Shown piece by piece: positions 27,842-31,077 of a stretch of DNA of 64,000 nucleotides. The stretch lies in assembly GCF_018618415.1 (NCBI RefSeq), contig NZ_JACSMA010000001.1, positions 930,001 to 994,000 of the forward strand, read 5' to 3'. Within the stretch, counting starts at the first letter, position 1. Each line of letters begins with the position of its first letter. The DNA is from Exiguobacterium sp. s146. Lineage in GTDB: Bacteria; Bacillota; Bacilli; Exiguobacteriales; Exiguobacteriaceae. A program made the position numbers and the translations under genes. A model generated the notes under the pieces. That model was given only the letters and a program-made list of their open reading frames with translations. It was not told the DNA's origin and did not search any database.

Positions 27842-28612
27842 ATGGAAGAGAAAATCGTTTCCTTGAAGCAACAAGGACTAACGTTAAAACAGATTGCAGA
27901 ACAATTAGACATGCCAATCGGGAAAGTGCAGTACGCTTGGCGTAAATGGCGTTCCCAACACGGCGAACCGGCCAAACCGGTCGCCGCCGCTTCAAAACGA
28001 AAGACCGAAGGGAAGAAAGCAATGACTCCGAAACCGAAGCAAGTACCCGCCTCATCTGGGAAGCAGGTCGCTTCGACGCTGCAACACGAGCTGCCAGTCC
28101 AATCACCACTGTTAGATAAAGGCCTAGGCGGGTTCTGGAAGCTTCCAGACCGCTATGATCAAGATTTGATGCATGCGGTCGTCCAATCGCCGAACGCCGT
28201 CTACGTCTTTTGGGAAGTGTCAGACAGCGTCAAAGAGACGTTGTCGATGCAGTTCATGCGTCCGTGGGAAGATTTGCCGAAGGCGTTCCGAATCCTTGAC
28301 ATCACCTTGCTCGATTATGCGAGCGGTCATGCGAACCGGTCGTATACGTTCGAATTGCCAGAGATGACGAACAGTTGGTTCGTTCGACCACTCGATCCGA
28401 ACACGACATATGTGTTCGAGTTTGGGATTCGGACGATGGAAGGGGAATTCCTTCCGTTGCTCGCATCTTCACCGATTGACACGCCACGTGCGGAGCCAGC
28501 CGGCCATGGTCGTTTCGCTGAACCGGTACGACGTTGGCAATATGGAGAAGTCGAGTCTCCAGAACTGCTCGACACGCTACCTAAATATTCTGCATACCGA
28601 TTCGTGCGCTGA
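27842..28612 (+). CDS. DUF4912 protein with N-terminal HTH-like segment
   Basis: A 256-residue cytoplasmic protein of unknown function. Residues about 1-38 look like a helix-turn-helix (KQQGLTLKQIAEQLDMPIGK). Residues 40-80 form a lysine/proline-rich linker. The remainder is the DUF4912 domain, with YVFWEVSD and TYVFEFGIRT. AAGGGAG precedes the ATG. It lies 14 nt before the GH57 gene and probably shares its mRNA. DUF4912 genes often neighbour GH57/glycosyltransferase genes in my recollection, which suggests a carbohydrate-related regulator or scaffold. That role is inference. Confidence 0.75.
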   Translation: MEEKIVSLKQQGLTLKQIAEQLDMPIGKVQYAWRKWRSQHGEPAKPVAAASKRKTEGKKAMTPKPKQVPASSGKQVASTLQHELPVQSPLLDKGLGGFWKLPDRYDQDLMHAVVQSPNAVYVFWEVSDSVKETLSMQFMRPWEDLPKAFRILDITLLDYASGHANRSYTFELPEMTNSWFVRPLDPNTTYVFEFGIRTMEGEFLPLLASSPIDTPRAEPAGHGRFAEPVRRWQYGEVESPELLDTLPKYSAYRFVR

Positions 28613-28626
28613 GGAGGATTTATTTG

Positions 28627-30828
28627 ATGAAACCAGGTTATTTTTCACTCGTCCTTCATGCCCACCTTCCGTACGTGCGACATGAAGAGAAACACCGCTT
28701 AGAAGAGAGATGGGTGTATGAAGCCATCTCCGAGACATATATCCCGATTCTGTGGCAAGTCGACCGTCTACAGCGACCGCTCCATTGGACGGTCAGTATC
28801 TCACCGCCCGTCGTCGAGATGCTCGCCGACCCGCTCGTCCAGGACCGTTACGTGGAACATTTGGATGAGATGCTCGAATTGATTGACATCGAGCTCGCCG
28901 AAGGACGAAGCGAACCGGAAGTCGAGACGCTCCATTTTTATCGTCAGCGCTACAACGATTTGAAAACAACGTTCTTGCATTGGGAGAAAAACTTGAACCA
29001 TGCGTTCCGTACATATCGTGAGCAAGGGTTCATCGATATGGTCACATGTACGGCGACCCACGGCTTCAATCCGCATTTGTTCACAGAGCAGGCCGCCCGC
29101 GCGGAAATCCGTACCGGGTTGAACTGTTTCGAACGTCATTACGGGTTCCGCCCGACCGGGATTTGGTTGCCGGAGTGTGCCTATACGCCGGGTGTCGACC
29201 GCATCTTATACGAGGAAGGCATCCGTTATACGTTCGTCGATGAGCACGCCTTGCTCGATGCCGACCCGACGCCGGACAAAGGCATTGGCGCACCGGTCTA
29301 CTCGCCGCACGGCGTCGCCTTGTTCCCGCGTGACCAAATCATCTCCGGGAAGATTTGGAGCTCGATGATCGGGTACCCTGGTCATCCTGACTATCGCGAG
29401 TTTTATCGCGACCTCGCCTATGATCGTGATTGGGCGTATATCGAAAAGTTCATGCACCCGGAAGGGATTCGTTTCGATACCGGCCTGAAGATGCACCGTA
29501 TCACGGGCGACACGGATGAGAAAGACTTTTACGTCCGCGCTTGGGCCGAGCATCAAATCGACAACCACGCCCTCGATTTCGCTCAGACGCTCGAAGGCCA
29601 TCTCGAGGCCCATGGTGGACAAACGTTCCCGCCGTTCCTTGTGACGGCGCCGTTCGATGCCGAGTTGTTCGGACATTGGTGGTTTGAAGGACCTGAATTC
29701 CTCGGCAAAGTCGCCGAACGGCTCGAAGAGTTCGGCATCGAGACGATCACGCCGGCGTTGTTCCTCGAGCGCCATTTCCAAGACCTCGAGACGGTCCATG
29801 TCTCGATGAACACGTGGGGGCGCAAAGGGTATGGGGATGTGTGGATTAACGAGCGCAACGAATGGATGCTCCGTCACTTGCACATGATGGAGACACAGCT
29901 CGTCAAAGACGTGGCCGACTATCGTCACGCCTCACCGCTCGTCGACCGGGCGCTCATCCAACTCGTGCGACATTACGTCCTCGCCGTATCGAGTGACTGG
30001 GCCTTCATCCTCGACGGCCAGACGACGGCCCAATACGCGGCCGAACGTTTCCGTGAGCATACACGCCTGTTCGCCGAGCTCGAAACGGCACTGTATCAGG
30101 ACAAGTTGTCGGAAGAACTGCTCGCCGACCATTATCGCGCCTATCCGTTCCTAGATGATGTGGACATTGACATCGACACGTTCCTGTCTCCGCACGATTA
30201 TTATGTGACCGAGGAACGCGGCAGTGAAGGCGAGGCGATTCTCGTCTTGACGCCAGAATATACGGGCAACGTCGTCGGTGACCTCGGACGCCGTGTCATC
30301 GACGAAGTCGAAGCGCGGGCGGCGGAAGGCGAGACGGTGTACGTCTTGACTCCGTTCAAGGAAGGGTTACCGGAGTATGAACGTCACAACCACGTACACG
30401 TCTATCGGGTCCGCCTGACGAGCCCATTCTTGGAACACGTGATGAACCAGGTCGCGGCCCAAAACGTGGCGTACGTCAAACTCGTGCATGAACTAGTTAC
30501 CAAAGTCGCATTCAAAGTGATCCATCAATTTGATTGGATGACAATTCCTGCGGCACGTTCGCTTGCGAAAGCACTACAAGTTCCGTTATACTCAACTATG
30601 TTGTCCTTTGAAACGACCCGCAATCCGCACGGACACGGCGGTTTGTTCGACGCAATCCATCGAATCGAGAACAGCGTCCTCGCTGAAGCCGATACGGTGT
30701 ATATCTGCGAACAACTATCGACCGAGGAAGTCGGAATGCGCTATGCGATTGGCGATAACGTAAAAACCTGCCTGCCGCTCGATGCTTCGCCATACGGGCA
30801 AAAACGTTTGAAAAAGAACACGAAATAA
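28627..30828 (+). CDS. GH57 (DUF1957) glucan branching enzyme fused to the N-terminal half of a GT4-type glycosyltransferase
   Basis: A 733-residue fusion. Residues about 1-520 are a GH57 alpha-1,4-glucan branching enzyme (SLVLHAHLPYVRH; LPECAYTPG with the nucleophile Glu; DAELFGHWWFEGPEF with the second catalytic Asp). From about 535 the sequence becomes a glycogen-synthase-like GT-B acceptor lobe: LVLTPEYTGNVVGDLG, HQFDWMTIPAARSLAKAL, IHRIENSVLAEADTVYIC. It then stops. The nucleotide-sugar lobe with its E-x7-E motif is missing and does not resume in any frame before rpmG. The last 350 nt look less GC-rich than the rest. ATG at 28627 is chosen over an adjacent TTG. Confidence 0.82.
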   Translation: MKPGYFSLVLHAHLPYVRHEEKHRLEERWVYEAISETYIPILWQVDRLQRPLHWTVSISPPVVEMLADPLVQDRYVEHLDEMLELIDIELAEGRSEPEVETLHFYRQRYNDLKTTFLHWEKNLNHAFRTYREQGFIDMVTCTATHGFNPHLFTEQAARAEIRTGLNCFERHYGFRPTGIWLPECAYTPGVDRILYEEGIRYTFVDEHALLDADPTPDKGIGAPVYSPHGVALFPRDQIISGKIWSSMIGYPGHPDYREFYRDLAYDRDWAYIEKFMHPEGIRFDTGLKMHRITGDTDEKDFYVRAWAEHQIDNHALDFAQTLEGHLEAHGGQTFPPFLVTAPFDAELFGHWWFEGPEFLGKVAERLEEFGIETITPALFLERHFQDLETVHVSMNTWGRKGYGDVWINERNEWMLRHLHMMETQLVKDVADYRHASPLVDRALIQLVRHYVLAVSSDWAFILDGQTTAQYAAERFREHTRLFAELETALYQDKLSEELLADHYRAYPFLDDVDIDIDTFLSPHDYYVTEERGSEGEAILVLTPEYTGNVVGDLGRRVIDEVEARAAEGETVYVLTPFKEGLPEYERHNHVHVYRVRLTSPFLEHVMNQVAAQNVAYVKLVHELVTKVAFKVIHQFDWMTIPAARSLAKALQVPLYSTMLSFETTRNPHGHGGLFDAIHRIENSVLAEADTVYICEQLSTEEVGMRYAIGDNVKTCLPLDASPYGQKRLKKNTK

Positions 30829-30927
30829 CCTTGCTTTTTCAAATAAAAATTGGTAGGATAATTGAGTATGCTTAGACTGTAAAGCAAAAGCACTTGATAC
30901 AACATTAGTAAGATGGGAGTGAAAGAA

Positions 30928-31077
30928 ATGCGCGTTAAAATCACACTAGCTTGCACAGAAACAGGCGATCGCACGTACATCACGAAGAAAAACAAACGTA
31001 ACAACCCAGAGCGCCTCGAATTGCGCAAATACAACCCACGTCTCCGTCGTCACACGCTTTACCGCGAAGTGAAATAA
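30928..31077 (+). CDS. rpmG: 50S ribosomal protein L33, zinc-independent form
   Basis: A 49-residue ribosomal protein: [20 protein letters not shown] near the start and [11 protein letters not shown] at the end. Only one cysteine (residue 9) is present, so the two CxxC zinc pairs of the classic form are lost. This is the C-minus paralogue that does not need zinc. The ATG follows GGGAG about 10 nt upstream. Position next to yqgN agrees with Bacillus gene order. Confidence 0.92.

Follow-up and report, generated by a model that had tools for sequence, protein, structure and literature searches.

The window, the whole 64,000-nucleotide stretch of the Exiguobacterium sp. s146 genome that was analysed, carries on its forward strand (28627-30828) a gene for a GH57-type protein of 733 amino acids, which begins with ATG and has an AGGAGG sequence upstream at 28612-28617. 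All other features of the window described below lie on the same strand. The preceding gene (27842-28612) encodes a protein with an HTH-like start and a DUF4912 domain, and is a conserved partner of the GH57 gene. The next gene is rpmG (30928-31077), encoding ribosomal protein L33, which begins 99 nt past the stop codon and is preceded by a 25-nt block (30850-30874) that is kept in all 38 genomes of the Exiguobacteriaceae and possibly serves as the promoter or leader of rpmG.

The protein has the two domains of a GH57 glycogen branching enzyme in sequence, both above their Pfam cut-offs: the GH57 catalytic domain (residues 8-318, 28648-29580; PF03065, E 1.8e-45) and BE_C, the C-terminal domain of GH57 branching enzymes (residues 417-515, 29875-30171; PF09210, E 1.8e-20). 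Its closest relative by sequence in the PDB is 2b5d, which we take to be the GH57 protein of Thermotoga maritima, and the alignment of the two spans residues 5-501. E183 (29173-29175), presumably the GH57 nucleophile, and D344 (29656-29658), presumably the second catalytic residue, sit in the motifs WLPEC and PFDAELFGHWW, respectively; both are invariant in the 38 family proteins, and D344 also in the 26 other rows counted. In domains and in the two catalytic residues the protein thus resembles the GH57 branching enzymes of T. maritima (2b5d), Thermococcus/Pyrococcus and Thermus, and we predict that it has branching activity. The NCBIfam equivalog models for the Thermococcales and Thermus enzymes give 285.5 bits against a cut-off of 1000 and 248.9 against 920, placing the protein outside those two narrow types. 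The chains of solved GH57 branching enzymes are 520-568 residues long, leaving no room for a glycosyltransferase lobe, unlike the 733-residue protein described here.

The additional length is accounted for by a short linker and by a tail, approximately residues 536-720 (30232-30786), that Pfam, alignment, profile comparison and a model of the tail all assign to the acceptor (N) lobe of a GT4-like GT-B transferase. The first-pass annotation had read the protein as a GH57 branching enzyme joined to only the acceptor half of such a transferase, with the donor lobe missing and no reading frame continuing it, and both statements hold up. The Pfam family Glyco_trans_4_4 matches residues 554-694 (32.1 bits, cut-off 29.7) and Glyco_transf_4 falls below its cut-off (23.3 bits, cut-off 28.5), while a Pfam search of the 733-residue protein finds no Glycos_transf_1 C-lobe. 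In hhalign, a profile built from 23 of the 38 family tails aligns at 99.6% with one made from the N-lobes of 22 full-length GH57-GT4 fusions (E 1.2e-24 over 176 columns); against the C-lobes of 18 of these fusions it reaches 1.1%, which is no match. By alignment, the end of the tail coincides with the hinge between the two transferase lobes. No C-lobe lies downstream of the GH57 gene, where rpmG is found instead, and the nine places at which PF00534 matches the genome do not include the GH57 locus.

Structure prediction, which the annotation had suggested as a check, points the same way. The AlphaFold model of the tail is weak (mean pLDDT 57, pTM 0.61). The structures most similar to it are nevertheless GT-B transferases, which it matches in their acceptor lobes, with MshA at Z 18.2 (rmsd 3.0 over 183 residues), sucrose-phosphate synthase also at Z 18.2, GlgM at Z 16.2 and Pyrococcus GlgA at Z 15.6; Foldseek with the same weak model gives E 4.9e-08. 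The matches include 6ldq, whose title points to a shortened sucrose-phosphate synthase comprising residues 27-220 and 406-426; this suggests that a lobe of this kind is able to fold by itself. A search of the PDB sequences with the tail profile returned no transferase and seven matches at chance level. The model of the full-length protein (mean pLDDT 48.8, from an alignment that lacked diversity) is of no use for the contact between domains, and with the tail model weak as well, the interface cannot be read from either.

The tail retains degenerate remnants of two transferase motifs, recognised by alignment with full-length fusions: the WEFPPxxVGGL loop at residues 541-554 (30247-30288) and HAHDW at residues 633-637 (30523-30537). 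The motifs singled out by the first-pass annotation sit at residues 541-554, 633-650 and 677-694. As a GT4 protein, then, it has the acceptor lobe; the donor lobe is missing, and the WEFPP-VGGL and HAHDW signature is retained only in part, in one of the two genera of the family (genus 1). One protein of the other (genus 2) scores 22.6 bits against a Pfam transferase cut-off of 28.5. On its domain architecture we identify the protein as a GH57 alpha-1,4-glucan branching enzyme with a GT4-like acceptor lobe as its tail. According to the weak model, the tail shares the acceptor-lobe fold of the GT4/GT5 glucan synthases, from which it differs in being a half only, without the donor lobe and most of the signature residues. 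We found no description of a half-lobe GH57 protein in the open-access literature, as judged by titles and abstracts.

The half form is present as a single copy of 726-733 residues in all 38 Exiguobacteriaceae genomes (19 in each of the two genera), including one, G023, in which the gene is 60% identical. All 38 proteins end at the lobe hinge, at nearly the same place, and the distance from the stop codon to the start of rpmG is 99-120 nt in every genome. A recent truncation, an assembly error or a frameshift in Exiguobacterium sp. s146 would not account for an end common to 38 genomes, and we reject this explanation, the chance of which is negligible.

Outside the family, 75 genomes of a draw of 398 Bacilli genomes match the protein at E < 1e-90, and 15 further genomes match weakly. 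In 73 of the 75 (counted by eye, and including G077, in which the frame is shifted in the donor lobe) the match is near-complete and lies in an open frame of 884-1127 aa, long enough for a full GH57-GT4 fusion. Of the two others, G050 has its match split over two frames (613 and 374 aa), and G052 has a frame of 514 aa, without room for a transferase. We extracted 23 of the 73 sequences, and the donor lobe is in frame in 22 of them, the exception being that of G077 (locus L078). The full-length rows bear the WEFPPxxVGGL and HAHDW motifs, and Pfam finds Glycos_transf_1 in both fusions checked (L045 and L046). The first-pass annotation had proposed comparing end points among related strains, and had held that close relatives with an intact C-lobe would mean a recent truncation or a sequencing error. 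Such relatives do exist outside the family, but none of the 38 genomes within it has an intact C-lobe, which indicates an old loss and no error.

The phylogeny of the enzyme portion agrees with an old loss. In a tree of the GH57 and BE_C domains (14 of the 38 half rows and 26 of the 27 outgroup rows, L074 being left out; midpoint root), the half forms of both genera make up one clade with 100/100 support, inside a group, also supported at 100/100, with four full-length rows: L045, L046, L047 and L064, the last on a long branch. The position of the half form as one clade among full-length fusions indicates that the donor lobe was lost a single time. The three nearest fusions are 42-47% identical to the half protein. 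Full-length fusions such as L045, L046 and L047 likewise have a DUF4912 gene upstream; they differ from the Exiguobacteriaceae form in having a donor lobe, HAHDW, VGGL and a nucleotidyltransferase gene downstream. Gene order is shared with the near full-length loci on one side or the other, as pst, phoU and DUF4912 upstream or the region of 5-formyltetrahydrofolate ligase downstream. Tree and gene order together identify the half protein as an ortholog of the full-length GH57-GT4 fusions. The known proteins closest to the transferase part of these fusions include the glgA_Coryne model TIGR02149, GlgM (6tvp) and Pyrococcus GlgA (2bis), with scores under the NCBIfam cut-offs.

The nucleotidyltransferase homolog follows the fusion on the same strand in 23 of the 27 outgroup loci (L045-L056, L058-L064, L073, L076, L078 and L079), including the four nearest full-length ones, and was not found downstream in the remaining four (L057, L074, L075 and L077). 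It is often fused to a phosphohexomutase domain (Pfam was run on four loci), and the gap between it and the fusion is at most about 264 nt, except at L063, where the fusion is split. At L047 and L064, rpmG lies some 120-130 nt past the nucleotidyltransferase. The best-scoring matches to it in the 38 family genomes are just 28-36% identical, GlgC among these, and its ortholog therefore seems to be absent from the family. NCBIfam models of several kinds match the nucleotidyltransferase, all under cut-off; the lost downstream gene probably made a sugar nucleotide.

As the nucleotidyltransferase gene and the donor lobe are gone from the same place, both could have been removed by one deletion running from the hinge to the rpmG leader. 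We envisage an ancestral bifunctional GH57-GT4 fusion followed downstream by a gene for a sugar-1-phosphate nucleotidyltransferase. In the family's common ancestor, a single event, the simplest being a deletion reaching from the lobe hinge of the transferase to just before rpmG, would have removed both the donor-binding lobe and that gene. The orphaned acceptor lobe would then have lost most of its transferase residues while keeping its fold.

The composition of the tail does not call for a different history. The first-pass annotation had noticed that the last 350 nt of the gene are lower in GC than the rest, which is correct (0.480 versus 0.564), and had taken this as a hint of separate origin. 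However, 16% of the window's stretches of that length have a GC content as low, the step is absent or weak and inconsistent in low-GC relatives, and the tail is homologous to, and collinear with, the N-lobe of the fusion itself; a foreign origin is accordingly rejected. Close to the stop codon, the fall in GC may be due in part to the approach to the conserved block before rpmG. In the region of 30742-30928, the last 28 codons of the gene show low synonymous divergence (dS 0.17-0.20, compared with 0.45-0.94 elsewhere), and in five loci with an earlier stop (L010-L013 and L017) similar DNA still follows. The low-dS gene end and the 25-nt block are perhaps the promoter or leader of rpmG and the DNA upstream of it. 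Guessed promoter hexamers for rpmG were unsupported by a scan, and we therefore call the element a conserved block only. The sequence GAAAAAGAACG at the gene end was likewise discarded as a conserved DNA element, being present in just 27 of the 38 genomes. Searches near the GH57 gene found no known RNA families and no tandem repeats.

As a transferase, the retained lobe is probably dead. Across 22 full-length rows (the 27 outgroup loci minus L063, L073, L074, L075 and L078), 43 N-lobe positions are conserved at 95% or more, and nine of them are kept in both genera; the corresponding figure for the GH57 and BE_C domains is 88 of 95. W543, P546 and P547 are lost in all 38 proteins. In nearly all genus-2 rows a deletion has removed the VGGL loop, which genus 1 keeps in part (Gly552 in 8 of 19). 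In HAHDW, the second histidine is replaced by phenylalanine in every protein, while Asp636 and Trp637 are kept in all genus-1 rows and lost in genus 2.

The substitution in HAHDW also bears on whether the acceptor lobe could still be active with a donor lobe supplied in trans. PMC8993221 describes a GT-B enzyme formed by Alg14 and Alg13. In eukaryotes these are two polypeptides, the lobes being separate chains, and the pair provides a precedent for a split transferase. In the Exiguobacteriaceae, in contrast, the lobe is part of a branching enzyme and shows signs of being catalytically dead. No orphan C-lobe that could be its partner appears among the matches listed: every frame among the listed family matches is at least 362 aa long, and the nine PF00534 matches of the s146 genome itself lie in frames of 375-803 aa. 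On these matches, a split enzyme is very improbable.

As a protein domain, in contrast, the lobe is probably alive, its sequence bearing the marks of purifying selection in both genera. The dN/dS ratio over residues 536-705 is 0.055 in genus 1 and 0.060 in genus 2, compared with 0.032 and 0.017 for the GH57 domain (24 pairs in genus 1 and 32 in genus 2, of 171 each, at an overall dS of 0.05-1.0; 22 and 20 pairs for the linker). None of the 38 proteins, judged by length, has a stop before residue 700, where a rough neutral bound would have about 100 nonsense events per genus, a figure good to an order of magnitude only as the distances are saturated; length variation is confined to the last 6-7 codons. 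The hallmarks of a pseudogene, a dN/dS near 1 and stops scattered through the tail, are thus lacking. Between the genera, the tail is 33% identical and the GH57 domain 74%, whereas the same two parts differ little in full-length fusions (51% and 48% identity, 23 rows). The tail thus diverges much faster than the enzyme part, which argues that constraint on it has been relaxed, not released. The first-pass annotation had offered two options, a half domain kept as a glucan-binding module or a decayed bifunctional enzyme, and each is partly borne out: descent from a fusion and the loss of most of the signature agree with decay, yet the lobe is under purifying selection.

The lobe may be ballast without a function of its own, its fold maintained by selection just because removal would expose or destabilise the fused BE_C surface; the few transferase residues left (9 of 43) and the faster divergence of the tail between genera would fit this. 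We consider it unlikely in view of the constraint within both genera (dN/dS of about 0.06), the finding that a stop has removed the tail in none of the 38 genomes from the two genera, and three derived residues, Y572, Q608 and F635, that are invariant in both. The reading that we prefer, with a probability of roughly 0.6, is that the protein is the sole branching enzyme of the family, derived from a once-truncated fusion, and that its catalytically dead lobe is kept as a structural or glucan-binding accessory module. In such a non-catalytic role the lobe would most likely pack on and stabilise BE_C, hold glucan near the GH57 active site, or both. More tentatively, the acceptor lobe could have become a module that guides glucan or couples the enzyme to GlgA, so that the family's only branching enzyme would depend on a fossil half-enzyme.

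The part of the preferred reading that concerns the sole branching enzyme draws on the distribution of glycogen genes. In the 398-genome draw, 170 genomes score over cut-off for the glycogen synthase GlgA (TIGR02095) and 130 for the GH13 branching enzyme GlgB (TIGR01515), the 130 all lying within the 170 (overlaps between GlgA and GlgB were counted by eye). The Exiguobacteriaceae have GlgA over cut-off in 38 of 38 genomes and GlgB in none. GlgA without GlgB occurs in 40 genomes, namely the 38 Exiguobacteriaceae, G311 and G130, every one of which carries a gene of the GH57 branching type. In the s146 genome, a stretch of 15 kb around glgA, at C2:717000-732000, contains genes resembling glgC, glgD, glgA and glgP (GlgA by profile, the others by eye), and no glgB was found in it. 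The presence of GlgA and of the GH57 gene in all 38 genomes, together with the lack of any GlgB over cut-off, makes the GH57 protein a likely glycogen-branching enzyme, and probably the only one of the Exiguobacteriaceae, acting beside the GT5 synthase GlgA. In published work, PMC2615787 states that the branching enzyme is missing from E. sibiricum 255-15, which may store an unbranched polymer; the occurrence of the GH57 gene in all 38 family genomes searched speaks against that statement. GH57 was counted in 186 of 187 Exiguobacterium strains in PMC13233415, which lists it as starch-degrading.

Among the 73 genomes with full-length fusions, 65 score below cut-off for both GlgA and GlgB, and the other eight have GlgA, six of these also GlgB. 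The contrast in GlgA between half-type and full-length genomes is strong by Fisher's test (p 3e-22), but because the half type is a single clade this counts one event many times. The presence of GlgA fits a redundancy of the lost transferase half. GlgA alone does not force the loss, since the full fusion persists in the near relative G311, which has GlgA but no GlgB.

A further possibility is that the lobe is a docking domain that recruits GlgA, GlgP or the DUF4912 protein and thereby couples elongation to branching. The presence of GlgA in all 38 genomes is compatible with this, as is the DUF4912 gene, which adjoins the GH57 gene in all 38 family genomes and lies upstream in 23 of the 27 outgroup loci. 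However, DUF4912 accompanies the full-length fusions too and so leaves the half lobe unexplained; we give docking a slimmer chance still than ballast, and continue to favor the accessory module, structural or glucan-binding. A role of DUF4912 in the handling of glucan is a guess. By eye, DUF4912 is present in 70 of the 73 genomes with full-length fusions.

A GH57 protein and a GT4 protein are also associated in mycobacteria, where the GH57 protein Rv3031 is paired with the GT4 protein Rv3032 and the two are separate, complete genes; by this description the system is set apart from the fused half lobe of the Exiguobacteriaceae. Rv3031 is presented in PMC6629080 as a branching-type protein with a proposed role in lipopolysaccharide synthesis. 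In the Exiguobacteriaceae, a bifunctional enzyme would have lost one activity through the removal of exactly one lobe, along with a neighbor that probably made the donor, while the other lobe stayed under selection, and the case lets one ask directly what purpose half of a GT-B fold can serve.

Two observations concern the full-length fusions themselves. With the nucleotidyltransferase that follows it in 23 of 27 loci, the GH57-GT4 fusion is perhaps a self-contained module for making the donor, elongating and branching, and this candidate module is found mostly in the genomes without GlgA and GlgB noted above. The fusions at L063 (G050; split into 613 and 374 aa) and L078 (G077; 884 aa, with a shift of frame in the donor lobe) look broken inside the transferase part, and may represent either decay under way or assembly errors.
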